Part shown: one piece after another, positions 24,433 through 57,847 of the stretch | Layout of the letters: the number at the start of each line of letters is the position of its first letter | Position numbering within the stretch: the stretch's first letter is position 1 | Source of the DNA: Pseudomonadota bacterium | GTDB taxonomy: Bacteria; Bdellovibrionota; Bacteriovoracia; Bacteriovoracales; Bacteriovoracaceae | Assembly: GCA_027487685.1 (NCBI GenBank) | Contig: JAIYDC010000019.1 | Coordinates: 1 to 64,000, forward strand | Reading direction: 5' to 3' | Length of the DNA: 64,000 nt | Notes under the pieces: model-generated | Seen by the model: only the letters and a program-made list of their open reading frames with translations | Told to the model about the DNA's origin: nothing | Databases searched by the model: none | Program-made: the position numbers and the translations under genes

Positions 24433-24508
24433 TTTTTTCTCCAACGGTTTTCATTTATCACGTTATTATAGAAGAAATGTAATTTTGATCGAAGTAAAAG
24501 GAATTTAC

Positions 24509-26599
24509 ATGAAAAAAATTATCTCTGTTGGGGCCGTAGCTACCGGACTTTTGGTCGTGTCTTGCGCATTAAATAAGACCAAACCGGTTACGACGGCAAA
24601 AAATCATCAAACTGCTGACCGAATGCCTACTTCAGAGGATGCTGAAGAATCTCCCTGGACGACCTGGTCCAGGAGAGGAACCGTCGGTGGCCTCTACGTC
24701 CTAAAGGGGATCCGAGAGAACCTTCTGAAAATCAGCCTTCACGACCCACACATCGACTACTCGAGTTACGCTCCTGTCGACTGCTCAAAGCAGAATACCA
24801 GGTTTAGAAGCGCCGATGGGACTTGTAACAATCTTGCCAATCCAAACGTGGGTGCCGCTGGAGTAGCCTTCGGCCGTAACGTAGCTCCGGAGTTCATCGA
24901 CCAAGATGCCGAAGAAAAATTGATGACTCCAAACCCTGCTGAGATCTCAAAAGAATTTTTCACAAGAGATGAGTATAAAGAAGTCCCATTTTTGAATATG
25001 CTCGCTGCAAGCTGGATTCAATTCATGAATCACGACTGGCTTACGCATGGTCCGAACGCAACGGAGAATCCACACCGCGTACCAATGCCCGATGGATCAG
25101 AGGTCACCGTAGATCGTACGAAAGAAACCGTGACAAGATCTGGGGTTAAAGGGACCTTCAGTAAAGTGACGAACAACGATGTGACGCACTGGTGGGACGG
25201 TTCCCAGATTTACGGCAGCAACCAGGCCGAGCAGAATAGTCTACGATCCTTTGAAAAAGGGAAGATGATCACTGTTATAGAAAACGGAAGAGAGCTCCTC
25301 CCGAAGGGAACTGACCTGAATCCGGCGAACAATCGATTGAATCACGGCCACGAGCTCACTGGGTTTCGAGATAACTGGTGGGTTGGCCTTAGTATGCTCC
25401 ACCACCTCTTCGTTAAAGAGCACAACGCGATCGCTGAAATGCTCATCAAGAGGCACGTGACCTTTGACGAGGGGTCGAAGAAATGGATCTGGAACCAAGC
25501 GGGTCTTTTAAACAGAATAGGTAACGCTGTCAGGACAAACGACAGAGATGTCTTTTCTTTCACTGACAAACAGCTCGATGAGCACGTGTTCCAGACCGCT
25601 CGCTTGATCAACGCTGCAGTCATGGCGAAGATCCACACCGTCGAATGGACTCCAGCGATTCTCCCGAACAAAGTTTTGAAGAAGGCGATGTACACCAACT
25701 GGTACGGCCTTGCGAACCCGCAGACGTGGTCAAAATTGATTAAGAATATCCCTGGATTTAACAAAGTTAAATGGTTCGAGGATCTAAATACCGGGTATAC
25801 CATCGGCGGGATCGTCGGTGATAGAACAAACGACTACGGTGTTCCCTACAGTATTACGGAAGAGTTCACTTCCGTGTACCGTCTTCACTCCCTCCTGCCT
25901 GAGAAGCTTTACTTCAAAAAGCTTGATAATCAGAACGAAGTCGAAGCCGTTCCATTCGGAGCGACTCGAAACGAGAAGACATACTCCATCATGGCGAACA
26001 ATGACTTAAAAGACTTGTTCTACTCATTCGGGACACAAAAGCCCGGCCAGCTTGTGCTTAACAACTTCCCTCAGTTCATGCAGAAGTTAACCATCCCGGG
26101 TCACGGCGTGATGGACCTTGCGATGGTTGACATCATTCGAGACCGCGAGAGAGGTGTTCCTCGCTACAATCAATTCCGGAGAGGAATTGGTCTTAGACCG
26201 ATCCGCAAGTACGCTGACTTTTTCCTTGATGGAAAGGCCAAGGATGCACGCCAAGAGGCGATTCTGGCCAAGTTCAACAGCGTTTACGGGAAAGATGCCC
26301 AGGGGAATGATAATGTCGAAGACGTAGACCTCCTAGTAGGAACATCTGCTGAAGAAGTACGCCCACTAAACTTTGGCTTCGGCGAAACTCAATTCCACAT
26401 CTTCGTGCTGATGGCTTCAAGACGCTTAATGGCGGACAGATTCTACACAGCTAACTACCGCAAAGAGTACTACACTCAAGCGGGTCTGGATTGGATTGAC
26501 AACGAGGGCTACATGCACAAGGTCATAGTCCGTCACATGCCTGAACTAAAACCGAAATTAGAAGGTCTTGAAACTGCTTTCTATCCTTGGAAAAACTAA
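24509..26599 (+). CDS. Fatty-acid alpha-dioxygenase-like heme enzyme (animal peroxidase superfamily), lipoprotein
   Basis: The start is taken at the ATG at 24509 (AAAAGG seven bases upstream), which gives the lipoprotein signal KKIISVGAVATGLLVVSC. The 696-residue product follows plant alpha-dioxygenases along its length: RFRSADGTCNNLANPNVG...FGRNVAPE, AASWIQFMNHDWLTHG (distal heme His175), THWWDGSQIYG, and EEFTSVYRLHSLLP with the catalytic Tyr457 and proximal His460 in the Y-R-x-H arrangement of alpha-DOX. Such enzymes add O2 to the alpha carbon of fatty acids, giving 2-hydroperoxy acids. Membrane anchoring on the periplasmic side suggests action on exogenous or prey lipids. A terminator follows. 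Confidence 0.85.
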   Translation: MKKIISVGAVATGLLVVSCALNKTKPVTTAKNHQTADRMPTSEDAEESPWTTWSRRGTVGGLYVLKGIRENLLKISLHDPHIDYSSYAPVDCSKQNTRFRSADGTCNNLANPNVGAAGVAFGRNVAPEFIDQDAEEKLMTPNPAEISKEFFTRDEYKEVPFLNMLAASWIQFMNHDWLTHGPNATENPHRVPMPDGSEVTVDRTKETVTRSGVKGTFSKVTNNDVTHWWDGSQIYGSNQAEQNSLRSFEKGKMITVIENGRELLPKGTDLNPANNRLNHGHELTGFRDNWWVGLSMLHHLFVKEHNAIAEMLIKRHVTFDEGSKKWIWNQAGLLNRIGNAVRTNDRDVFSFTDKQLDEHVFQTARLINAAVMAKIHTVEWTPAILPNKVLKKAMYTNWYGLANPQTWSKLIKNIPGFNKVKWFEDLNTGYTIGGIVGDRTNDYGVPYSITEEFTSVYRLHSLLPEKLYFKKLDNQNEVEAVPFGATRNEKTYSIMANNDLKDLFYSFGTQKPGQLVLNNFPQFMQKLTIPGHGVMDLAMVDIIRDRERGVPRYNQFRRGIGLRPIRKYADFFLDGKAKDARQEAILAKFNSVYGKDAQGNDNVEDVDLLVGTSAEEVRPLNFGFGETQFHIFVLMASRRLMADRFYTANYRKEYYTQAGLDWIDNEGYMHKVIVRHMPELKPKLEGLETAFYPWKN

Positions 26600-41660: not shown

Positions 41661-41810
41661 TTGCGGAGCCACCTTCGCAGAGTGACAACCTAGAGCAGAA
41701 AAAAATTAAGGATCAATATTGGGTGAATGACCTTCCCTTCGCTAGTATCGGAAGGATTCATTTCCATTCGATCTTCGATAGTAACCAAGGCCAACGAGGG
41801 AGAGACCAAA

Positions 41811-42659
41811 ATGAGAACAACTATTCTTTTTATCCTTTTGTTCATCATCAGCGCTGCATCCGCTGCAAGCAGTCTGACCCACGTGGGCACAGTCATCAAA
41901 ATCGATCATGGTTCCAAATTCGATGAGGAAACCCATGTCTACCTAAGCAATGGTTATGTGCTTAAGCTCAAATCACGAGACTCGGGTAACAAGGCGAGGG
42001 CACTAGAAGGAGCCCAGGCCAAAGGCAAGATGATCAGGGTCAAAGTAGACCATGGGCGTTGGATCAAATCTGTGGCAATCCTTCGTGTTCCTGAAGCAGA
42101 GTCGACACCAGAGATTAGCGTACCGATAAATTATTCCCCGACTGTTCTGGAATCTAATGCAGAGGCCTCCCAGATCTTTACCAGGCTTCGTCCGAATCCC
42201 CGCCAGAAGTCACAGTGCTACAACCGCGCTCACGTCTGGGCCTACGAATCTAAAATGTCATCCAACCTCGACTCTCAAAAGGTCTTTTTATTCTTCACCA
42301 GACGCTACATTCGGGAGTTTAACTTCGAATGGTGGTTCCACGTTTCTCCCTATACCTTGGTTAAGGGTCCTGAGGGCGCCAATCTCGAACGAGTCTTGGA
42401 CTATCGGTTTACGAAGAGGCCCCATGGGGTAAAAGAGTGGACGGATATCTTCATGCGCAACAAAGTCACATGTCCAGTGATTGCGCTCTACTCAGAGTAC
42501 GAAAGAAACGAGTCTATAGGATACTGCTACCTCCAAAAAGAAAGCATGTACTACCTCCAACCATTAGATCTCGACAACCTTGAACGGACTGGGCGGATGA
42601 AAACAGACTGGCTGAACTACGAGTTACGGCGGGCGTACCGTGACGGCTTTAATCTCTGA
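41811..42659 (+). CDS. Secreted protein-glutaminase-like deamidase
   Basis: The start is taken at the ATG at 41811 (GGGAGAG ahead; signal peptide RTTILFILLFIISAASAAS); a longer open frame begins at 41727. The 282-residue product ends in a domain with CYNRAHVWAYE (Cys136), WWFHVSPY (His177) and VLDYRF (Asp197). Order and spacing (41 and 20 residues) match the Cys-His-Asp triad of Chryseobacterium protein-glutaminase as I recall it (156/197/217), an enzyme that deamidates glutamine in folded proteins. Residues ~20-110 form a beta-rich N-terminal part that could be a pro-region covering the active site. Confidence 0.75.
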   Translation: MRTTILFILLFIISAASAASSLTHVGTVIKIDHGSKFDEETHVYLSNGYVLKLKSRDSGNKARALEGAQAKGKMIRVKVDHGRWIKSVAILRVPEAESTPEISVPINYSPTVLESNAEASQIFTRLRPNPRQKSQCYNRAHVWAYESKMSSNLDSQKVFLFFTRRYIREFNFEWWFHVSPYTLVKGPEGANLERVLDYRFTKRPHGVKEWTDIFMRNKVTCPVIALYSEYERNESIGYCYLQKESMYYLQPLDLDNLERTGRMKTDWLNYELRRAYRDGFNL

Positions 42660-46444: not shown

Positions 46445-47977
46445 ATGAAAAAGTCACTCGTAAGCGTAGCCGCTGTGGCACTGCTATCGACCTCAATACA
46501 CGCGGCAGGACCGGCGGGGAACCTCGATTACCGAGCACTAAGAATTCCCGATGTATCTCCCGTTCCGGCCGATGAAAGCGAATTCATGAAAGAAAAGAAG
46601 GAGTGGGGCCGGCAAAAGCGTAAGCTCGCGAGTGATTTGACCTTTAGTGAGAGTGACCTATCCCCGGACTACCAGAAACTAAGAGATGAATGGCTGTCGG
46701 TTAAAAATGGTGATGAAATGGAGGCCCTTCTTCGTAAGAGTAACCAGGACTATGACAAATACTCAGAAGACGCCCGCTACTTCATTTCTCAGCTCCAGTT
46801 GGCACTTCCTCTTCGTGGGATCATCTGGCGCCTCCGGCCACTGTTTGAAAATAGCAAGGGATTCTTGGGTAACAAGTCCACTCACGTAGGTGCTGTGCAA
46901 GCGGTAAGGACAACAATCTCAGCCCTTAAGCTTCTGCTCCCTAGCCGTCAAACTGATGCGGCCATTCAATTTTTCACTGAGCCCTCTGGAGAAATGGGTA
47001 GGGAGCATCAGTTCAAATCTATTCCTCAACTCCAGCAGTTCCTCATGAGTAATCTCGCAACTGCACTCGAGGTCTCAATCAACAGGATCACGGCTATCTC
47101 CCGAAACAGTGCACAGAAAATGTTTGTCTGGGATAACAAGATGACCTTCGGTCGTGCTACCTTCGGAGATGACCTCCAGCGCTTTAAAGGGAACGGGGCG
47201 GCAGAGATCTACTTCACCTTGGCCACACTCCAGCGGGCTCACCACGACATACTAGTCTACTGTGCCTACAACCAAGATTACTCTATTGCACTCGCCGGAG
47301 AGCTGGGCACCCATCTCGGCATTGACTCAAGCATATTCGCCTCACGCCAAGAGGACCTAGGGATTACAGATCGTGAACGTGTTGCCATCGTTCAGAAGGC
47401 GACCCAGGCCAAGCGATTCCTTGAGCTAAGGAACTACGGTGGAACGACCTACGGATCAAACCTCATGAAAGAAGCTTACGACGCGCTCAAGAACTCGGTT
47501 GTCTACGCTGAGCGCTCTTATGACTTCCTTCAAATGGGTGAATCCAGCAAGGCACATGCCATAAATCCCATCTTCTTCCAGCAGCAGCTTGCTCCTAACC
47601 TACCAAACGGAATTCAAAACATGAAAGCCGTGGTCTCAGGCCCAGCAGAGGTCAGGGATCCAGTTACAGGGGATACCGTCTCTCTCAATCTTCCGGCGTT
47701 TTATCTCAATCCCCCTCAATCATTGGCGGTGCTACTCCCAACCGCCTTTGAAGCTGGCGAGCCTCATAAGATCATTAAGAATAAAAAAGGCGAAGACCTC
47801 AAGGTTAGGAATTACACCCATGGTCGCTCTATTGCATGGGACAACAGCGCCTGGAAAAATTACGTCCCAAGTGCCGAAGGTAAAACTCCAGGGTATATGG
47901 CCGAGGCACGTAGGGTGCTAAAATTTAGCTTCGGTACCTCACTGGTCTTTGGTCTACCGGACTTCTTCGTTCATTAA
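46445..47977 (+). CDS. Exported hypothetical protein at head of oxygenase operon
   Basis: The 510-residue product has a signal peptide (KKSLVSVAAVALLSTSIHAA). The mature protein is largely helical in its first ~330 residues (e.g. YFISQLQLALPLRGIIWRLRPLFE, LMSNLATALEVSINRITAIS), with a later segment PVTGDTVSLNLPAFYLNPPQSLAVLLP. I do not recognise any domain. AGGAG precedes the ATG. Its stop lies only 11 bases before the first Rieske gene, so it is probably the first gene of the oxygenase operon and may act on the product in the periplasm. Confidence 0.6.
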   Translation: MKKSLVSVAAVALLSTSIHAAGPAGNLDYRALRIPDVSPVPADESEFMKEKKEWGRQKRKLASDLTFSESDLSPDYQKLRDEWLSVKNGDEMEALLRKSNQDYDKYSEDARYFISQLQLALPLRGIIWRLRPLFENSKGFLGNKSTHVGAVQAVRTTISALKLLLPSRQTDAAIQFFTEPSGEMGREHQFKSIPQLQQFLMSNLATALEVSINRITAISRNSAQKMFVWDNKMTFGRATFGDDLQRFKGNGAAEIYFTLATLQRAHHDILVYCAYNQDYSIALAGELGTHLGIDSSIFASRQEDLGITDRERVAIVQKATQAKRFLELRNYGGTTYGSNLMKEAYDALKNSVVYAERSYDFLQMGESSKAHAINPIFFQQQLAPNLPNGIQNMKAVVSGPAEVRDPVTGDTVSLNLPAFYLNPPQSLAVLLPTAFEAGEPHKIIKNKKGEDLKVRNYTHGRSIAWDNSAWKNYVPSAEGKTPGYMAEARRVLKFSFGTSLVFGLPDFFVH

Positions 47978-47988
47978 GCGGTAAAACG

Positions 47989-48999
47989 ATGGCGTATGCA
48001 GCAAAGATTAAGCACTTTGGGGAGCAAGGATTCGTCCCGGATGGGTGGTATTGGCTCGTACGCTCTACCGAGGTCAGAATAAAGAAAGCTGTTCCCGCGA
48101 AGTTCCTCGGAACGGAACTTGTTCTCTTCCGGGGAGAAGACCAAGTCGTACGCGCCTTCGACGCCCACTGCCCGCACATGGGGGCGCACCTATGCGACGG
48201 ATTTGTCGAGGGTAACTCGATCCGCTGCCCCTTCCATTTCTGGAAGTATGATCAGAGCGGAAAATGTGTCGAAATCCCAGCCCAGAAGGACAACGCTACG
48301 ATCCCGAGTCTTCGGTCACATAAAGTTGCGGAAGCATATGGACTTATCTGGATTTGGACTGGAGATCCGAACGACTCCGAGGAAGTCCCCGTCATTCCAG
48401 AGCTCCGAGGGATTCCGATAGAAAGTACACTTGGAGCACAGTTCACAAAGAACTGTCACCCGAATGTGGTGATGATCAACGCCATCGACATCCAACACTT
48501 TAGGTCCGTGCATCAGCTTATCGTCGACCTTGAGATGAAGGTCACACCCCTCTCAGACCGGTGCATTCAGTTCTCGAATGTGACTCCCCTGCCTGAGAAA
48601 AATCTGCTACTGCGAATTGCCAAGCGCTTTTATCATAAGGCACTCACCTATGAGATGACCTACTGGTGGGGACACACAGGCTCAGTCATGGTGGGCCCGG
48701 ACTTTCTTCATTTCTACATCATCTTCGCGCTGAGACCCACGCTCGATGGAAAGACGGAGGGCCAGACACTCCTCGTGACGAAGAAAAGAAGTGGTCTTTT
48801 TGGAAGTCTCATCAATCCCGTTCTCCTCTTCGCAACCAAGCTCGTAGGTAATTACTTCGCCAAGGGAGACACCATCATTTTCTCTCGAATAAAATTCAAG
48901 TTCCAGACTCCAATCCGGGCCGACAAGGCGATCATCGACTTCGTCGAGCACTATGAAAAACAAAAATCTTCCGATACCTATAAGGTGGAATCCGCATGA
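47989..48999 (+). CDS. Rieske non-heme iron oxygenase 1 (KshA/cholesterol-desaturase type)
   Basis: The 336-residue terminal oxygenase has [2Fe-2S] ligands Cys61 and His63 (CPHMGAHL) and Cys80 and His83 (CPFHFW), and mononuclear iron ligands in AIDIQHFRSVH (Asp167 bridge, His170, His175). The CPHMG-x-x-L form and size resemble KshA and DAF-36/Neverland-type sterol oxygenases more than dihydroxylating dioxygenases. A hydrophobic C-terminal stretch (LINPVLLFATKLVG) could touch the membrane. It overlaps the next gene by four bases. The substrate is unknown; a hydrophobic one is likely. Confidence 0.87.
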   Translation: MAYAAKIKHFGEQGFVPDGWYWLVRSTEVRIKKAVPAKFLGTELVLFRGEDQVVRAFDAHCPHMGAHLCDGFVEGNSIRCPFHFWKYDQSGKCVEIPAQKDNATIPSLRSHKVAEAYGLIWIWTGDPNDSEEVPVIPELRGIPIESTLGAQFTKNCHPNVVMINAIDIQHFRSVHQLIVDLEMKVTPLSDRCIQFSNVTPLPEKNLLLRIAKRFYHKALTYEMTYWWGHTGSVMVGPDFLHFYIIFALRPTLDGKTEGQTLLVTKKRSGLFGSLINPVLLFATKLVGNYFAKGDTIIFSRIKFKFQTPIRADKAIIDFVEHYEKQKSSDTYKVESA

Positions 49000-50186
49000 A
49001 CCGAAATCTAAGTCAGCGCCACGACATCAGCCTCGCCGATGATCCGAAGACTCAGAAGCGCCTAGAGCTCGCTTTGAAACGCAGTAAGGAGTTGGATCAA
49101 ACACAGAATATGGACGCTGCTTCAAAGTCTTTTAACTACGAAACCTGTAAAGACGAATATTGGAATCCAGAGAAATTCTCACTTCTCTACAAAACCTGGA
49201 TCTGGGATCAGGCCACCCCTGCCCAAAGAGTAAAACTTAACCAGCTCTTCTGGGTCTCCTACTATTCACAAATCATCTCGGCAGAGATTGCGACGATCTT
49301 CTTTAATCAAACAAGTGCCGCCGCCCTTTACGGCATCGAAGACTTCAGGATCGTCTGTGACACACTCGATCTGGAATCAACTCAAGAGAGGGCCCACATC
49401 CACGCCTTCAAGACCGTGGCCGAGAGATTCGAGCAGGAAAATTTCGGAAAAAGGATCTTTACCTACCCTATGCGCACACCGTTTGAGAAGACCATGCTCT
49501 ACAGCGACCTCTCCGAATTCCAGCAGTGGTGGCGTAAGTGGCAGCTAAGATTTTTCACCATGATCTCCAGTAACTCGGCATTCATTGGCTGCCAGTACTT
49601 CACAGTCCGGGGTCTCCGGACGCTCAATGGCAAGATCGTTCAGCACCAGCTCTCGCGATTTTATAGCGAGCACCCGGATAAAGAAAATTCTCCTGTTCCG
49701 TCACAGATCAGTTACTTTCACTTTATCGATGAGTCATTCCACTTCAATACCTCAACCGTTGTCTCCCATGATGTAATCAACTCACTCCCAAAGCCTTCAA
49801 AGCTTGAAATGTACATTGGCAACATGGCCCTCAGAGGGTGCCAAATGGACCATTACAACTTCTCCACCGCCATCAATGGAATCTTTTGGTACGATCCTGC
49901 ACTCTTCGAGAGCATCTATCAGGTGCTAAGGTCGCCGATCTTCGGTATGTCCCGGGATGCAGCACTGCACGCCATGGAGAAGTCCTTCTGTGAGGAAAGC
50001 GAAGGGATGCTTGCAAGTCATAAGACCCACCGTGAATCCGTCGACAGCTACCGCGCCTACCTTCAGGACTTCAATTACATAAGCCGCGAGAATAAAGAAC
50101 TCACCCTCATGGCGAGCAACGGCCTGGCCAAGCACCTTTCGACAAACCGCCGGGCATTCGCGGCCTTCCGCCGGAGTGCCGCTTGA
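48996..50186 (+). CDS. AurF-like diiron oxygenase
   Basis: The 396-residue product has the four-helix diiron pattern of p-aminobenzoate N-oxygenase-like proteins: Glu97 in SAEIATIFFNQ, Glu131 and His134/His136 in QERAHIHAF, and Glu246, His249 and His258 in FIDESFHFNTSTVVSH. AurF and CmlI of this family oxidise aryl amines to nitro groups; other members act on alkyl substrates. It overlaps Rieske 1 upstream (ATGA) and the ferredoxin downstream. N-oxygenation of an amine intermediate is plausible but not proven. Confidence 0.75.
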   Translation: MNRNLSQRHDISLADDPKTQKRLELALKRSKELDQTQNMDAASKSFNYETCKDEYWNPEKFSLLYKTWIWDQATPAQRVKLNQLFWVSYYSQIISAEIATIFFNQTSAAALYGIEDFRIVCDTLDLESTQERAHIHAFKTVAERFEQENFGKRIFTYPMRTPFEKTMLYSDLSEFQQWWRKWQLRFFTMISSNSAFIGCQYFTVRGLRTLNGKIVQHQLSRFYSEHPDKENSPVPSQISYFHFIDESFHFNTSTVVSHDVINSLPKPSKLEMYIGNMALRGCQMDHYNFSTAINGIFWYDPALFESIYQVLRSPIFGMSRDAALHAMEKSFCEESEGMLASHKTHRESVDSYRAYLQDFNYISRENKELTLMASNGLAKHLSTNRRAFAAFRRSAA

Positions 50187-50479
50187 AGCCTTGCAGAGTT
50201 GAGTTTCCGGGGACAGACAAATCTCCGGTGGATTTGGAATCGGGAGCAAATCTATCTGAGAAGCTCACGATTCATAACTCTCCTATACTCTTCGGTTGCC
50301 GCATCGGAATCTGCGGGACCTGCGCAGTCGAGGTCGTTGCAACTGACGGTCCCCTTCCAGAGCGTACTTTTGATGAGGCCCAGTTCCTTGAGGCGATGGC
50401 GCCCGGCCAGGATTCAGTCCGATTAGCATGCCAAATCCGAATTAACACAAATATGAAAATAAGGAAAACGCAGGTCTAA
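50183..50479 (+). CDS. [2Fe-2S] plant-type ferredoxin
   Basis: The 98-residue product starts at TTG overlapping the upstream stop (TTGA). The cluster ligands are Cys39, Cys44 and Cys47 in GCRIGICGTC, and Cys83 in LACQIR, the C-x4-C-x2-C...C spacing of plant-type ferredoxins. It is embedded between two oxygenase genes with no own promoter and is the likely electron donor for the Rieske and perhaps diiron enzymes. No ferredoxin reductase is encoded in the cluster. Confidence 0.9.
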   Translation: MKPCRVEFPGTDKSPVDLESGANLSEKLTIHNSPILFGCRIGICGTCAVEVVATDGPLPERTFDEAQFLEAMAPGQDSVRLACQIRINTNMKIRKTQV

Positions 50480-51492
50480 TGAATCGCGAGGACTACTGGT
50501 ACATAGCCGCCGAATCTAAGGAGATTCCGATTAACGGAGTGGTCTCGCGAAGCATCCTTGGTGAATGGCTTGCGGTCTTTCGAAACGAGTCGGGAGAACT
50601 TGCTGCCCTTCAAGACCGTTGCCTTCATCGAACCGCTCAGCTCTCTCGGGGACAAGTCGTGGGGGGCCATTTGCAGTGCCCATATCATGGCTGGACTTAC
50701 GCTCGGGACGGAAATGTCTCCCGCATTCCCTCTATGGGAACAGAGTTTCGTGCGGGAAGTAAGTGCGCTAAGACCTATGAAGTCATAGAGAACGAAGGAT
50801 ACGTCTATGTCCGCTTGCGATCAGGTAGCGCATCCTCCCCGTTTCAAATGCCTTGCCACGGCGAGCGAGGTTATACGACGATCCGCCTTCAAAACCGATT
50901 TAGGAACAATGTCACCAACTGTGCTGAAAACTTCGTCGACATCCCCCATACGACTTTTGTGCATCCAAAGATCTTCCGGGACGCAAAGCACGAAGCCTTT
51001 GGGGCCGTGATCGTTCGGGAGAACGGTAGAGTGAAGGTAACCTATCAAAACGAACGGAAGAACTTCGGATGGTTCTCGTGGTTCCTCAACCCGAAGGGTA
51101 TTGAGATCGGTCACACCGATGAGTTCTTCGCTCCGAATGTTACAAGCGTGCACTACCGCTTCGGAGGAAAAAACCACTTTATCATCACTTCGCAATCCGT
51201 CCCCGTTTCTGAGGACGAAACTCTTGTCTACACGGATCTTACCTATAACTACGGCATATGGACTCTCCCGAGCCGCCCCCTAGTGCGATGGCAGGCCCAG
51301 GTCATCATTGATCAGGATGTCGAAATTCTCGACAACCAGATGAAGACAATTAAAAAGTATGGGGCCAACTTTCAGAATTCACCTGCGGACATCATTCATA
51401 CCTGGATCGAATCCATCCAGGCCGAGATTGCCGAGGGACGGGACCCACGTGATCTGCCTCGACGGGAGACAGAGATTAGGTTCTGGGTATGA
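50479..51492 (+). CDS. Rieske non-heme iron oxygenase 2 (VanA/PaO-like type)
   Basis: The 337-residue product has [2Fe-2S] ligands Cys48 and His50 (CLHRTAQL) and Cys67 and His70 (CPYHGW). The catalytic region NCAENFVDIPHTTFVH provides Asp154, His157 and His162. This motif type belongs to the vanillate demethylase/pheophorbide oxygenase branch, distinct from Rieske 1 and 3. The start overlaps the ferredoxin stop (TAATG). It probably carries out a monooxygenation or demethylation of the pathway intermediate. Confidence 0.87.
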   Translation: MNREDYWYIAAESKEIPINGVVSRSILGEWLAVFRNESGELAALQDRCLHRTAQLSRGQVVGGHLQCPYHGWTYARDGNVSRIPSMGTEFRAGSKCAKTYEVIENEGYVYVRLRSGSASSPFQMPCHGERGYTTIRLQNRFRNNVTNCAENFVDIPHTTFVHPKIFRDAKHEAFGAVIVRENGRVKVTYQNERKNFGWFSWFLNPKGIEIGHTDEFFAPNVTSVHYRFGGKNHFIITSQSVPVSEDETLVYTDLTYNYGIWTLPSRPLVRWQAQVIIDQDVEILDNQMKTIKKYGANFQNSPADIIHTWIESIQAEIAEGRDPRDLPRRETEIRFWV

Positions 51493-52226
51493 CCACCGTC
51501 ATCCTCTTTCTTACCTTCTCTGCAATCACCCTCACAGGACTCCTGAAAGAGGAGGGCCGTCGGGCGTTTTTTGACCGTGGCGGTGATGACTGGTTTCTCG
51601 ACCTTTTTGGACTCTTCATTCAGGGAGTGATTGTCCCGGCCGTTCCATTTTTAGTAGCACCCCTACTCGCTATCACTTTACCTTCACTCAAACAGAGCAT
51701 CGATATGAGCACTCCTCTCCAGTTTCTATTGAGCTTCGTGCTGGTGGACTACATCTATTACTGGAATCACCGTTACTTCCATACGAGGAAACTTTGGGAT
51801 CTTCACCGGGTTCATCACTCGGCACGGCACCTCGATGTATTCGTTACATCCAGGAATAGTTTCCTCACATCCTTTCTTTTCGTTTACATCTGGGGTCACT
51901 GTACCGCTCTCTTCCTTCTTAAAGACAGTACCGGATTCTCACTTGGACTTGCCCTGACCTTTGCCCTGGATCTGTGGCGTCACAGTGGACTATCCGTGAA
52001 TCCTGGATTGAGAGGTGTTCTTTCTCCGGTATTGATTCTTCCAACAGAGCATATCCTCCACCACTCTCCAACCGGTCGAAATCGAAACTTCGGGGCAAAC
52101 CTGTGTTGGTGGGACAAGATCCATGGGACTTACTCCGCGGAAGAGGTCCCTAATCGAAACCTCGAACGAATCTCAAGCACCAATCTTTGGCGAGAGATTT
52201 TTTGGCCATGGAGGCGTCGTCCATGA
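51489..52226 (+). CDS. Fatty-acid hydroxylase/sterol desaturase-family membrane diiron enzyme
   Basis: The 245-residue membrane protein has segments near 2-20, 33-65 and 78-95 and the eight-His diiron pattern: HRYFH (~97-101), HRVHH (~109-113), then later HILHH near 197 and other His. The family oxidises C-H bonds on sterols, fatty acids or carotenoids. It overlaps Rieske 2 by four bases. The combination with a KshA-like Rieske enzyme suggests a lipid or terpenoid-type substrate. Confidence 0.85.
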   Translation: MTTVILFLTFSAITLTGLLKEEGRRAFFDRGGDDWFLDLFGLFIQGVIVPAVPFLVAPLLAITLPSLKQSIDMSTPLQFLLSFVLVDYIYYWNHRYFHTRKLWDLHRVHHSARHLDVFVTSRNSFLTSFLFVYIWGHCTALFLLKDSTGFSLGLALTFALDLWRHSGLSVNPGLRGVLSPVLILPTEHILHHSPTGRNRNFGANLCWWDKIHGTYSAEEVPNRNLERISSTNLWREIFWPWRRRP

Positions 52227-52831
52227 GCTTCGGAGGTCGACTCGTTTCCCTTTTCCCTGCGCTCTATCTAGGCATCATCTTGTGGCAGATTGGGAATTGC
52301 CTAGATCACTTTCATCCTCTCGATGGCGTAATCCTCATCGTTCTCACCTACCTGCTCCCACTTGTGGCATATCGGATTCATTTTTTATTTTTTCCCTTTG
52401 GAGATGGCTACTGGCCACTCGCAGAAAAAAAATATAATCCATGGTGGGCGGCGCATATGTTTCAATTCCCGTTCATCGCTTGTCCTTGGCTTGAATCCCT
52501 CCTCCACTTTCTACCTGGCCTCTATTCCCTTTGGCTGCGGGCGTGGGGAAGTAAGATAGGAAAGAATGTGTACTGGACTCCCCGGGTAGAGGTAGTGGAC
52601 CGAGGTCTCATTGAAATCGGCGATCACGTGGTGGTGGGCCACATCAGCGCATTTTGCTCCCATATGGTAGCGGATGTTGAGGGGGCGCCAGCTCTGGTGA
52701 TAAAAAAGATTCACATCGGTGAGCGTTCATTGATCGGAGCGGACTCCCAGCTAGGCCCAGGAGCAGTCGTTCCTCCCCGGACAAAGCTCAAGCCAAAAAC
52801 TCGTCTCTATTGGCGCGGGGAGTGGCCTTGA
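52223..52831 (+). CDS. Membrane-anchored hexapeptide-repeat (LbH) acyltransferase-like protein
   Basis: The start is taken at the ATG overlapping the previous stop (52223, ATGA). The 202-residue product has two N-terminal membrane segments, a linker, then a left-handed beta-helix: IGKNVYWTPRVEVVDRGLIEIGDHVVVGH...KKIHIGERSLIGADSQLGPGAVVPPRTKL, with repeated [I/V]-G-x-x-x-x-[I/V] steps. Such domains occur in acetyl/acyltransferases. Only about four to five coils are present, so it is short. The acceptor is unknown. Confidence 0.75.
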   Translation: MSFGGRLVSLFPALYLGIILWQIGNCLDHFHPLDGVILIVLTYLLPLVAYRIHFLFFPFGDGYWPLAEKKYNPWWAAHMFQFPFIACPWLESLLHFLPGLYSLWLRAWGSKIGKNVYWTPRVEVVDRGLIEIGDHVVVGHISAFCSHMVADVEGAPALVIKKIHIGERSLIGADSQLGPGAVVPPRTKLKPKTRLYWRGEWP

Positions 52832-54222
52832 GAATCCGTCTCCTCATAATAAAGCTCATTTTGAACCTTCTTGTTTTACGCCGACGCCGGGCCTTCGTTC
52901 GTGCCTGCGAGAATCCGACTCAGGCACAGGCACATCTTAAAAGAGAGCTCTTGAGTGATGCTCTCATGCCACTTCCTTTAAAGGCCACTGACTATACCTA
53001 CTACCAAAATCTTCCGAGACTCACGCGAGCACCGCCATTATTTTTCGAGACGACCTCTGGTACCACTGGAGCCAAGAAACGCATCCCCTATACCCGTCGC
53101 CTTATAAAATCATTTGAATCAATGTTTCTTCTTTGGACGCATGATCTTCTCTCATTTTCAGGGATTCCCTTAAAAACAGGGCGAATCTTTGTAAGCATTT
53201 CTCCCCTGATAGGGGATGCGATCAACGATGATCGCCGTTACCTCTCAAAAGGAATAAACCTACTCCTCTCACCATTTCTGGTGTCAGATCTCAAACAGCA
53301 CAAGGCCCAAAGCGGAGAGGAATTCTTACTCCGAATAGCTCAAGACCTCGTTCGGGCGAGAGATCTCGAGGTCATTTCAGTCTGGAGTCCGAGCTATCTC
53401 GTCTCTCTCTTGGACTTTATGGAGAGGAATAAGGCAGTCCTCGGTCTTTCAGAAGTTGATCCTTCTGTTCTCTGGCCTGAACTCAAACTCATCTCTTGCT
53501 GGACTCATGCTCAAGCGGAACGCTCTGCAGAGCATCTTCGTAAAAAATTTCCGAAAGTCATGATTCAACCCAAGGGACTCCTTATGACTGAGGGGCCGGT
53601 AACAATTCCTTGGAGTGAGGCCGGAGGGAGCATTCCGTTAGTGACCGAGACACTCATAGAATTTCTAGACGAAGAAGAGCAGTTCGTACCTATGGGACAC
53701 CTAGAGCAGGGCCGTACTTATCGCGTCGTGACCTCCAGTGGCAACGGGTACCTCCGCTATGACACCAGAGACCTCGTCTTAGTGACAGGCCGATATAAAA
53801 AAGTCCCTGTGCTAAAATTTGTTGGGCGCATCGGTTGCTCGGTAGATTTGGTGGGGGAAAAATTAAGTGATCTTCTCTTGAGAGAGACCTTCCAGGGACT
53901 GCCGGATGAAGTCACCGTGATTCCAGAGATCATCGTAGGTAGGGCCGGCTACGCCATCCTATGCAGCTTGAGTTCTAAGGTTGATTGGGAAGAAAAACTC
54001 AAATCGATACACCACTACCGATTAGCACGCGAACTTGGTCAACTAGGGGCTGCGCGTTTGATCCAGGTTTCCAGTCCTACGGAAGCTTATCTTCTTTTCT
54101 GTCAGGAGAACGGCATGGTTCTGGGGGACATCAAAGAACGTATCCTCATCAACGACCTCAAGCAGGCTCAGCAATTCCTAGAATGGCTTGCGCGAGCGTA
54201 TCCGTCATCTCAGGAAGCGTAA
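52828..54222 (+). CDS. GH3-family acyl-amido synthetase-like enzyme
   Basis: The likely start is the TTG at 52828 overlapping the previous stop (TTGA); GTG at 52822 is an alternative. The ~464-residue product has ATP-binding and adenylation features of the GH3/ANL superfamily: FETTSGTTGAKKRIPYT, LLMTEGPVTIPW, GNGYLRYDTRDLVLVTGRY and KFVGRIGCSVDLVGEKLSD. GH3 enzymes adenylate a carboxylic acid and join it to an amino group. Here it would activate or amidate the acid intermediate. Its 3' end overlaps the convergent ferritin-like gene by 65 bases. Confidence 0.8.
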   Translation: MRIRLLIIKLILNLLVLRRRRAFVRACENPTQAQAHLKRELLSDALMPLPLKATDYTYYQNLPRLTRAPPLFFETTSGTTGAKKRIPYTRRLIKSFESMFLLWTHDLLSFSGIPLKTGRIFVSISPLIGDAINDDRRYLSKGINLLLSPFLVSDLKQHKAQSGEEFLLRIAQDLVRARDLEVISVWSPSYLVSLLDFMERNKAVLGLSEVDPSVLWPELKLISCWTHAQAERSAEHLRKKFPKVMIQPKGLLMTEGPVTIPWSEAGGSIPLVTETLIEFLDEEEQFVPMGHLEQGRTYRVVTSSGNGYLRYDTRDLVLVTGRYKKVPVLKFVGRIGCSVDLVGEKLSDLLLRETFQGLPDEVTVIPEIIVGRAGYAILCSLSSKVDWEEKLKSIHHYRLARELGQLGAARLIQVSSPTEAYLLFCQENGMVLGDIKERILINDLKQAQQFLEWLARAYPSSQEA

Positions 54223-55105
54223 GCGGCGCGAGAGTTCCATTGTGCGTAAGTTCATCCGAAACAGTCCGTGGAAGACTCTTATATACAAGATGGCCGATAA
54301 TTTCGAGCTTACCCGCTGTGACGGACACAGCATTAGTCTCGTGCAGGAAACTTCGAAAATCACCAGTTCCCTGGAACCCCACATACTGCGAGACTTCCTG
54401 GCAGACTGTGTAGGGACCGATTTTTACCATAGAGATCAACCGCTCAAGGTAACTCAAGATACTTTCTGCATCCGAGTTGGAAAGGGTAACGTCTCGGAAC
54501 AACACAACGCCGGCGGAGTGGTGACGTATTTCATCCTTAACTATACTTTTAAAGACGTTTGCAACCGTCTCGTCGAAACATGATTTAGCTAGAGTCTTGT
54601 AATAGTTTAGGCCCCAGCCTTCTAACAGAATTTGAATGAGAAGCAGGTGCCCAGGCTTGGTGGCCTCAGCAATAATCTCTCCGATCAAAAGCGCGAAGGA
54701 AGGAATCTGCTCAGGGGCGGTCGAAAATCCACCGATGCTTTCAATCATTCGAAGATGCCGCGTCTCTTCCTCTCCAACGAAAGAGAAAAACTGACGCTCT
54801 TCCCTGGAGGTGGACGCAAGATTCATTTTCCCCGCATAGGCCATTCCGGCGCACTCGATGAAGTAGGCTTCTTGCAGAACCTTTTGGCCAAGGGCGGTGA
54901 GGACTGCGTGCTTTGTAACATCATTGAGGTCTCTCCAATGCTTAGAACTGGTTAAGTTAAAAAAGTCCTCCCCCCAAAGAGGCCGTTCGAATCGCCGTGA
55001 AGGCAACAGTGTCTCCCCATGGACCTTCGCTGTTTGCTCCAAGAGCGTCAGAAAATCGCGCTGATCAGATTCATGCTTTTCAGGAAAGACATTCAGCTTC
55101 TTCAT
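54158..55105 (-). CDS. Ferritin-like diiron enzyme
   Basis: The 315-residue helical protein has two E-x-x-H units and extra Glu ligands: Glu79/Glu84 (LQEAYFIEC), EEETRH (Glu114, His117), Glu162 (LLEGWGLNYY) and DEIRHH (Glu192, His195). This is a diiron oxidase/oxygenase fold of the ferritin-like superfamily, longer than a simple ferritin. It is the last gene of the minus-strand operon and overlaps the SDR gene by four bases and the GH3-like gene antisense by 65 bases. Likely another oxygenation or desaturation step. Confidence 0.75.
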   Translation of the reverse strand: MKKLNVFPEKHESDQRDFLTLLEQTAKVHGETLLPSRRFERPLWGEDFFNLTSSKHWRDLNDVTKHAVLTALGQKVLQEAYFIECAGMAYAGKMNLASTSREERQFFSFVGEEETRHLRMIESIGGFSTAPEQIPSFALLIGEIIAEATKPGHLLLIQILLEGWGLNYYKTLAKSCFDETVANVFKSIVKDEIRHHSAGVVLFRDVTLSNSDAESILSYLERLISMVKIGPYTVCQEVSQYVGFQGTGDFRSFLHETNAVSVTAGKLEIIGHLVYKSLPRTVSDELTHNGTLAPLTLPEMTDTLAQAILGIAEPA

Positions 55106-55950
55106 GTTTGGGCCTTGAGGAAAACCATGCGGAACACACGATCCATGAGTGTAAAGTAAACGCGGGAGGGTAAGCAGTGTTTAAGAAAATAGGAGAGACG
55201 TCCGTCTTTTCCGAAGACCTTCCTCATAGGGAGCCTCTTTTGAAGCGAGAGACGCAGGATACCTTCGGAGACTTCGCTGGGTTGCTGGGGTTTACGCTTG
55301 GATATTTTCCCGTGGAGATCTTTGTAATTCATGAACTGGGCATGGTAAGCCGACTGAGCTCCAGGGGAACTCCAGCGGAGGTTGGACCCAAAGTTTGTTC
55401 GGAAGCCTCCTGGCTCGATCAAACAGACCTGAACACCAAAGGGAGCGAGTTCACCTCGGAGAGATTCAGTGAGACCTTCGACCGCATATTTACTGGAGCA
55501 ATAGAGACTCGTCAGGGGAAATCCCATAAAACCGAAAACCGAAGAGAAGTTAAAGATCTTCCCTTGAGTCTGCCGAAGAGCTGGGAGAAAAGCACGGGTA
55601 ACGGCAACGGTGCCAAAGAAGTTCACTTCCATTTGGTAACGAATTTCTTCCTCGGTAAGATCTTCAAGAGCGCCGAAGAGTCCGTAGCCGGCGTTATTTA
55701 TCAGTATGTCGATGGTACCAAGGCGATTAGCGACGGTGGCCGCGGCCATGGCAATTTCACTCTTTTGAGTCACATCAAGAGTAAGTTCCATGAAGCGATC
55801 AGGATGGTTTTTACGCTCGAATGAGAATACCTCATTTCGCTCTGTGAGATTCCGTCCTGTCGCGATAACGTAGTCACCGTTTTGTAGGAAGGCTTCCGTC
55901 AGAAGCTTGCCGAAGCCCGAGGTCGCCCCGGTAATTAGAACTGTTCTCAT
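55102..55950 (-). CDS. Short-chain dehydrogenase/reductase
   Basis: The 282-residue classical SDR has TGATSGFG (7-14), NNAGYG (85-90), the active-site Ser136 in FNFSSVFG and Tyr150 with Lys154 in YCSSK. The C-terminal tail of ~60 residues is basic and hydrophobic. It overlaps both neighbours by four bases. It would reduce a ketone or oxidise an alcohol formed by the oxygenases. Confidence 0.92.
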   Translation of the reverse strand: MRTVLITGATSGFGKLLTEAFLQNGDYVIATGRNLTERNEVFSFERKNHPDRFMELTLDVTQKSEIAMAAATVANRLGTIDILINNAGYGLFGALEDLTEEEIRYQMEVNFFGTVAVTRAFLPALRQTQGKIFNFSSVFGFMGFPLTSLYCSSKYAVEGLTESLRGELAPFGVQVCLIEPGGFRTNFGSNLRWSSPGAQSAYHAQFMNYKDLHGKISKRKPQQPSEVSEGILRLSLQKRLPMRKVFGKDGRLSYFLKHCLPSRVYFTLMDRVFRMVFLKAQT

Positions 55951-56675
55951 CGAGTCCTCACTTTGAGAGCTTTTTTCAGTGCATACTTAAAAGGCATCCA
56001 GAAAGTCATTCGGGCGACACAAGCAAGCTCATCACCTTTCCTCCAGCCTGGATTGCGCCTCTGAAAGAAATCGACTCGCGGCTCCCGTAAAAGTTCTGGT
56101 GTAATGTCTGCCACCTGATCCTTGAGCGCGCAGGCGACTCCATTGAAGTGAATCACTCCCGAAGATGGATCGTAATTCCCACCAAATTTATTGCCATAGA
56201 ATTCGTCCATGAGCTGACGGTACTCTTGAGGCGTCTCACGATCAACACGTGGGTAGTGTGTGGCGAAGTTCTTCGCCATTAAAAGATAAGTCTTGTAGCC
56301 CTTTGAGATAAGGAACCAATAAACAGGCGTTCCAGCGCTCCGAATGTTGAGCTTCCAAAGATACTTAAGAAACTCTATCCCTAAGGCACCAGAGCCCCAG
56401 TAGTCACGGCCGATGACCGTGTCTCCGCTATAGACTCCGATGATCTTTCTTCCGGACTTTGTGAGCGTAATCCGAAGGAGCGTTGAGAACCCCTGGAGCA
56501 CATGGGTCCGAGAATCTCTAAGCAGGATTACATGATTCTTCTCAAGTAGATCATGTTCAAACGACTCCCGGGTGTGGTTTTGGTAGTACTCAGAAAAGAG
56601 CTCATACATGCGGTCGATCTCAACCCGCGAGAGCTTCTTGACACGAACTGTAGCAGCAACAAGTTCCTTCCTCAT
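55947..56675 (-). CDS. Acyltransferase-like protein, GNAT-type fold suspected
   Basis: The start is placed at the ATG at 56675, which overlaps the Rieske 3 stop (ATGA). The 242-residue cytosolic protein has a pattern seen in GNAT-like folds: VEIDRMYELFSEYYQNHTRESFEHDLLEKNHVILLRDSRTHVLQGFSTLLRI and GVYSGDTVIGRDYWGSGALGIEFLKYLW in the place of motif A. The exact family is not recognised. Position between an oxygenase and an SDR suggests it works on the same compound. Confidence 0.5.
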   Translation of the reverse strand: MRKELVAATVRVKKLSRVEIDRMYELFSEYYQNHTRESFEHDLLEKNHVILLRDSRTHVLQGFSTLLRITLTKSGRKIIGVYSGDTVIGRDYWGSGALGIEFLKYLWKLNIRSAGTPVYWFLISKGYKTYLLMAKNFATHYPRVDRETPQEYRQLMDEFYGNKFGGNYDPSSGVIHFNGVACALKDQVADITPELLREPRVDFFQRRNPGWRKGDELACVARMTFWMPFKYALKKALKVRTR

Positions 56676-57727
56676 AAGAGCTTCCAAGGCGAAGGTGCCA
56701 GCTTATTTACATACTGGATGTACTGAGCGACTGGTCGGTCAATCGGAAGAAGGTTCGCTGGGAAAAATCGCATGTTCTCGTATACGGCGCCGTCTTCCCC
56801 CTGAAGTGCAAAAAAAGCACGCTTCGTCAGCCAGAGGAGAAAGTGCGAGATCAGCCGTCCAGTGATGCCGCGGCGGTGTGGGGTGAGGTAAATAGGCTGC
56901 ACAAGAGTCCGACCTTTCTCGATAGGCCGATACGCAAAGATCATATGCAGTGAGGGCCATTGATGTCCTCGGAAGACAGCGTTCCGCATAAGGGTAAGCA
57001 GACCATTATTCCCGTGATCATAGCGCATGGAATAGGAGTAGGTGTTACCGAGGAGAAAGCGCGCCAGTGATTCGCGCAGATTCCCGGTGCCGATCTTGCC
57101 GGTGAGAGTTATATCAATAAGGCCACCCCGGGTCTCCTCCGAGATATCTACTTCCATTTCGATATCGAGGTTATGAACAGTTTTAAGGTGCTGGGGATCG
57201 AGACCGTTGATCATAGTCACGTGATGATGGCAGCTGCGTTCATAACTTTTCCCAAACTCGACTTTAAGACCTTGTGACTCCGAAAAATCCGGAAAGCTCG
57301 CTAGTTCCGGGATCTGACCACTGGCCGGATAAACCCAGATCGCATTGTACTTTTCGCATACAGTGTAAGATCGGACCTTGGCCCGTTCAGGGATATCTGG
57401 CGCGCAGGGCACCTTGGCACAGGCGCCATCAACTCCGAATTCCCAGTGGTGAAAGAAACACCTGACGTTTTCTCCTACGACGGCACCACGCCCCAGGTGA
57501 GTCCCCATGTGCGGGCAGTACGCGTCGAGTGCCGCGAGCTTTCCCTGGGTGGTACGAAAGATCACCAGTTCCTGACCACAAAGCTGAAGTGACTTCACGG
57601 AACCGGACTTAAGTTCTTGAGATGGAAATGCGTAGTACCAACCAAGGGCCACTTCACCCCAATTATTAAATATGGGGAACTCGGAAATAGGTTGGGTCGT
57701 CTGGTTTTTAACTGAGTACATCTCCAT
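56672..57727 (-). CDS. Rieske non-heme iron oxygenase 3
   Basis: The start is uncertain: ATG at 57727 is used here (351 aa); ATG at 57721 or an upstream TTG at 57748 are alternatives, none with a good ribosome binding site. The [2Fe-2S] ligands are Cys71 and His73 (CPHMGTHL) and Cys90 and His93 (CFFHHW); the iron-site motif is GLDPQHLKTVH (Asp177, His180, His185). Close in type to Rieske 1 (shared CPHMG-x-H-L, similar middle and C-terminus), so the two may be paralogues. It heads the minus-strand operon. Confidence 0.85.
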   Translation of the reverse strand: MEMYSVKNQTTQPISEFPIFNNWGEVALGWYYAFPSQELKSGSVKSLQLCGQELVIFRTTQGKLAALDAYCPHMGTHLGRGAVVGENVRCFFHHWEFGVDGACAKVPCAPDIPERAKVRSYTVCEKYNAIWVYPASGQIPELASFPDFSESQGLKVEFGKSYERSCHHHVTMINGLDPQHLKTVHNLDIEMEVDISEETRGGLIDITLTGKIGTGNLRESLARFLLGNTYSYSMRYDHGNNGLLTLMRNAVFRGHQWPSLHMIFAYRPIEKGRTLVQPIYLTPHRRGITGRLISHFLLWLTKRAFFALQGEDGAVYENMRFFPANLLPIDRPVAQYIQYVNKLAPSPWKLL

Positions 57728-57847
57728 AATTTTAAGGGTTATCAACAATCGCGTCGAGGTGGTGAAATTTTCTTTGCCTGACCATTTCTCTCGCTGGCGT
57801 CAGGCCTGCAGGACAAAGCTAAGAGATTGGTAAAAAAGGAGAACGAT

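Follow-up and report, generated by a model that had tools for sequence, protein, structure and literature searches.

A Rieske oxygenase-rich gene cluster with a putative CylC/NocO-type diiron halogenase in Bdellovibrionota and its relatives in other phyla

Gene content and organization of the locus

The stretch of DNA analyzed here (the window) comprises the first 64,000 nucleotides of contig JAIYDC010000019.1 from a member of the Bacteriovoracaceae within the Bdellovibrionota (assembly GCA_027487685.1), and positions 46445-57748 of it hold a cluster of 12 genes (g1 to g12) in two convergent operons. An earlier note on this DNA had stated that no known cluster matches; sequence comparison, however, identifies the locus as the counterpart in Bdellovibrionota of the cyanobacterial “Rieske-containing” CylC clusters (PMC8406957). 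We hypothesize, with a probability of about one-half, that this cluster is a biosynthetic locus for an oxidized, amide-containing lipid of the “Rieske-containing CylC-homolog” class, in which the diiron protein g3 most likely acts as a chlorinating enzyme.

All open reading frames (ORFs) were verified at their coordinates and strands, and ORFs, Pfam matches, and motifs agree with the earlier account of the 12 genes, their operons, and their families. The plus-strand operon (46445-54222) encodes, in order, an exported protein, Rieske oxygenase 1 (RO1), g3, a ferredoxin, RO2, a fatty acid (FA) hydroxylase, a hexapeptide protein, and a GH3 protein; the minus-strand operon (57748-54158) encodes RO3, a 246-aa GNAT-fold protein, a short-chain dehydrogenase (SDR), and a ferritin-like protein. 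The description of these genes as almost fully overlapping by 4 bp was roughly right, in that five of the 11 junctions measure -4 bp, but others measure -1, -16, -22, and -40 bp and g1 and g2 are separated by 11 bp; at the tail-to-tail junction of the operons, the GH3 and ferritin-like genes overlap by 65 bp. Promoter and terminator scans of the locus gave no excess over shuffled sequence. In same-genus genomes the block is kept between identical flanks (HutD, DUF4403, and a helicase), and it is therefore not an assembly artifact. As three of the four Rieske proteins in the whole genome are encoded here, same-genus relatives retain the block, and the gene set recurs across phyla, the cluster is not a chance grouping.

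Pfam backs the three Rieske, Fer2, FA_hydroxylase, GH3, Ferritin_2, and SDR assignments, and the metal-site or catalytic motifs are unbroken in the Rieske proteins (CxH..CxxH and DxxHx4H in all three), the FA-hydroxylase, the SDR, the GH3 protein, and both soluble diiron enzymes. RO1 (g2, 47989..48999, +) matches Pfam Rieske at 3e-23 and carries CPH..CPFH and DIQHFRSVH; RO3 (g12, 56672..57748, -) matches at 4e-22 and carries CPH..CFFH and DPQHLKTVH; RO2 (g5, 50479..51492, +) matches both Rieske and VanA_C, with intact motifs and a VanA/PaO-like C terminus. The plant-type [2Fe-2S] ferredoxin g4 (50183..50479, +; Fer2 2e-9; Cx4Cx2C) is the likely electron donor of the cluster oxygenases. The g6 product (51489..52226, +; 8e-23; HRVHH and HILHH) is a membrane diiron enzyme of the FA_hydroxylase/sterol-desaturase family with a weak NCBIfam OlsE match, and g9 (54158..55105, -; Ferritin_2 1.5e-6) encodes a second soluble diiron protein whose ligand set is complete and invariant (E84, E114xxH117, E162, and E192xxH195) and whose profile matches the aldehyde deformylating oxygenase (ADO) 5uxg (E 8.5e-4).

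Among the remaining genes, g8 (52810..54222, +; GH3_M 1.7e-11, GH3 5e-10; SGTT) encodes a GH3-family acyl-adenylating amide synthetase, with its N-terminal and central domains at 39.5 and 44.5 bits against a cut-off of 23.6, its C-terminal domain below cut-off, and a weak PDB match to the auxin conjugase GH3-1. The g7 protein (52187..52831, +; start codon uncertain) is a left-handed beta-helix (hexapeptide) protein and a possible acyltransferase (Hexapep 1.6e-5, just under the Pfam cut-off; NRPS_term_dom 1.6e-10, far under its cut-off), and g10 (55102..55950, -; adh_short 1e-47; TGxxxGxG and YxxxK) encodes the SDR. Two products lack a Pfam match: g1 (46445..47977, +), a 510-aa protein with an N-terminal signal-like sequence, which accompanies the cluster in Bdellovibrionota only and is also found in halogenase-less relatives there, and g11 (55947..56687, -). 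As neither the g3 profile nor g11 matched a solved structure by sequence, their folds were predicted; the AlphaFold2 model of g11 (pLDDT, a per-residue model confidence, of 89) is that of a GNAT-fold acyltransferase, with Z up to 12.8 against GNAT folds and 11.7 against LasI.

The earlier statement that polyketide synthase (PKS) and nonribosomal peptide synthetase (NRPS) genes are lacking holds: Pfam gave no PKS/NRPS and no acyl carrier protein (ACP), ketosynthase, or AMP-binding match among the 12 proteins, and the 12 genes encode neither a carrier protein nor a fatty acyl-AMP ligase (FAAL).

The oxygenases bear on a possible terpenoid substrate of the sterol or hopanoid type, a direction that the earlier note had raised. 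Against the 4beta-methylsterol monooxygenase, the scores of RO1 and RO3 exceed background, as does that of RO1 against KshA, and the FA_hydroxylase family includes sterol enzymes. However, the search for a squalene-hopene or oxidosqualene cyclase gave no match in this 97.7%-complete genome (an imported or prey-derived sterol is possible), the SdmA scores fall far under the curated cut-off (90 versus 600), and saxitoxin-pathway Rieske enzymes outscore KshA for RO1, so we regard a terpenoid substrate as improbable. The top-scoring solved relatives are SxtDIOX, SxtT, and KshA for the RO1 profile and SxtDIOX, SxtT, and DdmC for that of RO2; this is a family-level likeness only, and other saxitoxin genes were not recognized among the 12.

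A CylC/NocO-type active site in g3

The third gene, g3 (48996..50186, +), encodes a ferritin-like diiron protein that is the sole homolog of its kind in the genome and carries ExxQExxH (ESTQERAH at 127-134) and HxxDExxH (HFIDESFH at 242-249). Both are motifs for mining dimetal-carboxylate halogenases, and ExxQExxH is missing from AurF (PMC12871659). In the halogenase NocO, nine residues are essential, six of which bind iron and three of which (Q128, E252, and D282) do not, and the E252A variant is inactive though it retains iron (PMC12101540). The NocO essential residues map in g3 to E97, Q130, E131, H134, H242, D245, E246, and H249, all eight unvaried across 125 distinct homologs. The ninth position, that of NocO E252, is Q216 in g3, as assigned via the conserved K213 and a 29/30-residue spacing to Asp; it is Gln in 110 of 110 members of the g3 clade described below (the Rieske clade) and Glu in 15 of 15 others, and of these two residues g3 has the minority form among halogenase-type proteins, Gln.

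The predicted structure of g3 (pLDDT 91.9) has AurF and CmlI as its best folds (Z 16-17; AurF Z 17.3, 4.0 Å over 291 residues; VIA-align 2), and Foldseek with the same model ranked AurF second to third, with no E-value below 0.001. From an “AurF-like” g3, the earlier note had proposed N-oxygenation, and an AurF-type N-oxygenase would yield a product with a nitro, N-hydroxy, or similar oxidized nitrogen. We consider this unlikely in spite of the fold shared with these arylamine N-oxygenases and a weak Pfam AurF match, as that match lies under the gathering cut-off (17.1 versus 29.6 bits), the second-sphere Asp of AurF (D135, in DExxH) is Gln130 in g3, the seventh metal ligand (AurF E196) is not retained, g3 groups with CylC-type proteins, and arylamine precursor genes are not among the 12. 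Because ExxQExxH and HxxDExxH are the CylC/NocO signature, the predicted active site is of the halogenase type rather than the N-oxygenase type (PMC12101540, PMC12871659).

The g3 protein is 27-29% identical to four cyanobacterial CylC-type homologs, which came from a tblastn search that located g3 homologs on cyanobacterial plasmids. Two of them adjoin annotated FAAL and ACP genes plus PKS or PKS/NRPS genes, a third lies in an unannotated record in which the neighboring ORFs match in size and order, and the fourth adjoins sulfotransferase and P450 genes; FAAL/ACP neighborhoods are reported contexts of CylC-type dimetal halogenases (PMC8406957). In the g3 tree, which is unrooted and has many weakly supported forks, the window g3 belongs to a clade of 110 rows that includes Rieske-cluster cyanobacteria (SH-aLRT branch support of 100), and a long branch divides this Rieske (Gln) clade from the Glu clade. 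Judged by motifs and phylogeny, g3 is thus a member of the CylC superfamily with the active site of CylC/NocO-type halogenases; it shares with those enzymes the AurF-type ferritin-like fold, both motifs, and the conserved ligand set (PMC12101540) but differs in its Gln at the NocO E252 position, in the absence of the long inter-helix insert, and in having no FAAL/ACP partners.

Some cyanobacteria carry both forms. Two cyanobacterial genomes have a Rieske-clade copy and a second homolog (L165 and L166) with Glu at position 216 and without the long insert of FAAL-type proteins; these Glu-type proteins are two of the 15 and form a separate early branch. Calothrix sp. PCC 7103 (L073) likewise carries Rieske-clade (Gln) and Glu-type CylC homologs and offers a natural side-by-side comparison.

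Diiron halogenases chlorinate unactivated C-H bonds. The same lipid-amide pathway could instead employ g3 as a diiron hydroxylase, a desaturase, or another O2-dependent C-H oxidase, a reading that we consider possible though rather unlikely. The Glu-to-Gln swap is complete across the clade at a site essential for NocO activity (PMC12101540), the two g3 clades are set apart by a long branch, g3 has no carrier-protein partner, and every other neighbor of g3 is an oxygenase, all of which would suit such an enzyme; on the other hand, the remaining eight active-site residues are invariant, including the halogenase-specific Q130 in place of AurF D135, a small Q-bearing subset of CylC homologs has been reported and still placed in the halogenase subfamily, and an open halide site would tolerate losing the seventh carboxylate. 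Chlorination by g3 thus remains our preferred reading, and the product would probably be chlorinated or cryptically chlorinated.

Distribution and conservation of the cluster

Homologs of g3 occur in 28 of 291 sampled Bdellovibrionota genomes, strong Rieske-type matches in 16 of 244 sampled cyanobacterial genomes (two seed genomes included), and such strong matches in 4 of 141 sampled Myxococcota. From a one-genome-per-species scan, 80 of 153 g3 loci were taken up; these are mostly cyanobacterial and also come from Bdellovibrionota, Myxococcota, Elusimicrobiota, Acidobacteriota, Sericytochromatia, Planctomycetota, and one gammaproteobacterial metagenome-assembled genome (MAG). Around g3 in the 50 full-length loci, we found a ferredoxin gene in all 50, a g9-type gene in 47, RO1 in 46, the FA-hydroxylase in 45, the GNAT gene in 44, the hexapeptide gene in 42, and GH3 in 39, with at least two Rieske proteins in 47; the SDR (11 loci) and g1 (6 loci) were less frequent. 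Of the 52 loci that have all five of the ferredoxin, RO2, FA-hydroxylase, hexapeptide, and GH3 genes, 48 show them in this order with strand conserved. Pairwise distances of the partner genes track those of g3 (Mantel r of 0.68-0.87, with 0 of 500 permutations as high), a correlation that is partly the kinship of the host organisms. The genes proposed by the earlier note as a possible conserved block therefore co-occur, in same-genus relatives and across phyla, rather than lying scattered, and on these comparisons the cluster core is one that recurs across about eight phyla. The g3 tree intermixes phyla, with Sericytochromatia, for example, inside Bdellovibrionota, and this mixing suggests horizontal transfer of g3.

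Amidohydrolase, glycosyltransferase, and SnoaL-like genes lie near cyanobacterial copies in 5-16 loci and were not counted as core. The gammaproteobacterial MAG (L124) carries a 10.7-kb single-strand run of RO1, GNAT, SDR, ferritin-like, g3, ferredoxin, RO2, FA-hydroxylase, hexapeptide, GH3, and another Rieske gene, which would make a convenient construct for expression.

Rieske-containing clusters are the most numerous CylC-cluster type in cyanobacteria, and they were located largely by hand, as antiSMASH and CORASON overlooked many of them; a few mostly deltaproteobacterial homologs with Rieske and FA-hydroxylase neighbors were grouped with them by similarity (Eusebio et al. 2021, PMC8406957). 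In the literature, we found no product for clusters of this type. Like them, the window cluster has two to four Rieske genes (here three), one CylC homolog, a sterol-desaturase/FA-hydroxylase-family enzyme, and neither a carrier protein nor a PKS; unlike them, it is laid out as two convergent operons and has an SDR and an exported protein, which the cyanobacterial versions mostly or wholly lack (the g10-type SDR is almost missing there). Compared with that study (PMC8406957), our gene-by-gene comparison adds the core membership and spread of the GH3, GNAT, ferritin-like, and hexapeptide genes, the clade-wide Gln in place of NocO E252, and the sister clusters without a halogenase that are described below. 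The nostochloroside (ngl) cluster directs a CylC-dependent chlorinated lipid in a cyanobacterium (PMC10849952), but it is PKS-based and has a CylK homolog, neither of which was recognized in the window cluster.

The distribution also bears on a catabolic or detoxifying role, in which the locus would break down an aromatic or lipid compound, such as one from prey, instead of making a product. Catabolism often involves Rieske oxygenases and SDRs, and the hosts include predatory-type bacteria, but phototrophic cyanobacteria carry the same gene order, GH3 and GNAT proteins are conjugating, anabolic-type enzymes, and the 12 genes include no ring-cleavage or beta-oxidation genes and no dedicated reductase; we give this explanation very little weight and retain the biosynthetic one.

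Halogenase-less sister clusters in Bdellovibrionota

GNAT and GH3 genes are present in 27 of the 28 g3-bearing Bdellovibrionota genomes; in the exception (G189), the contig at this place is only 7 kb long. The GNAT gene also occurs in 39 Bdellovibrionota genomes that lack g3, and 26 of these have GH3 within ~15 kb. In 20 such g3-less loci that were inspected (L177-L196, e.g., L181, L184, and L194), GNAT, GH3, RO2-like, g1-like, and F17-like genes recur, along with fatty acid desaturases, a PAP2 phosphatase, radical SAM proteins, an FG-GAP/UnbV protein that also has an NQR2/RnfD domain (U1), and a 374-aa protein (U0). The last of these, found in 13 halogenase-less loci, was considered as a hidden diiron protein; profile comparison showed it to be unrelated to g3 and faintly related to GNAT. 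Because the g3-less loci keep GNAT, GH3, and RO2, these three genes form the shared part, and the halogenase-like module is one variant.

Proposed pathway and points against it

From the gene content, the conservation of the unit, the motifs and clade of g3, and the predicted GNAT fold of g11, we infer the substrate class, the order of steps, the halogenation, and the product as follows. Together, g11 (GNAT fold) and g8 (GH3) would build an amide skeleton from a fatty acyl unit supplied by central metabolism; the 12 genes include none for a carrier protein, FAAL, PKS, or NRPS. RO1, RO2, RO3, the membrane FA-hydroxylase, and g9 would then oxidize this skeleton, with the ferredoxin g4 supplying electrons and the SDR g10 adjusting alcohol or ketone groups. 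The g3 protein would perform an O2-dependent radical C-H functionalization, most likely chlorination, as its predicted 3-His/3-Glu site leaves one iron position free for halide; the chlorine would either stay in the product or serve as a leaving group.

A lipid amide is plausible given the FA-hydroxylase, GH3, the GNAT fold, and the Mpo1-like, desaturase, and PAP2 genes. The Mpo1-like genes found in several loci and the desaturase and PAP2 genes of related clusters point to a lipid, and the OlsE-like g6 and the ADO-like g9 lie in the same direction. The earlier proposal of an oxidized, nitrogen-containing lipid or terpenoid-like product thus stands in its lipid part, as a lipid amide, and loses N-oxygenation and the sterol or terpenoid substrate. 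We also considered a PKS or fatty acid synthase origin of the skeleton; the scanned accessory genes of relatives encode only Mpo1-like proteins, an SBF transporter, an acyltransferase-domain protein (F10), a DegT aminotransferase, an amidohydrolase, a glycosyltransferase, and unrelated neighbors.

Several points weigh against this pathway. The literature that we found holds no demonstrated halogenation for any Rieske-clade member, and with Q216 in place of a residue whose replacement inactivates NocO, the chemistry of this clade may differ. The link from g3 to CylC and NocO runs through the FAAL/ACP-context homologs rather than through CylC or NocO themselves, and with no ACP or FAAL the substrate must be presented differently. 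Amide and lipid alike are argued from family membership alone. The g3-less related clusters show that the halogenase-like step is optional, several g3 loci (e.g., L088) are without most partners nearby, the SDR and g1 lie outside the cross-phylum core, and host kinship accounts for part of the Mantel signal.

Other features of the window

The G+C content drops from ~50% to ~42% near 22 kb (1-22000 versus 22000-64000). Housekeeping genes (isocitrate dehydrogenase and argininosuccinate synthase and lyase) lie on the low-GC side, and a recent island and a chimeric MAG contig are therefore both possible. Elsewhere, the window encodes a 704-aa animal heme peroxidase family protein (24485-26599; PF03098, 6.5e-101), which is uncommon in bacteria; a 674-aa protein (8471-10495) in which a BlaR1-type M56 peptidase domain is joined to a penicillin-binding transpeptidase domain; and a 310-aa protein with a Gln_deamidase_2 domain (41727-42659; 1.1e-9).

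Implications

Taken further, and more tentatively, the comparison may describe a horizontally spread lipid pathway of about eight phyla, easily missed by standard cluster finders, in which a carrier-independent, Gln-marked diiron halogenase clade and five other O2-activating enzymes would produce an amide lipid, chlorinated or cryptically chlorinated, in predatory bacteria and cyanobacteria alike. To our knowledge, characterized diiron halogenases act on ACP-tethered acyl chains; the Rieske clade lacks a partner of this kind and may therefore provide stand-alone biocatalysts. Further, the fixed change from Glu to Gln offers a natural experiment on the role of this second-sphere residue, and a single cultivable carrier would suffice for identifying the product. 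The wide and ordered conservation of the cluster suggests that this product is important to very different bacteria.

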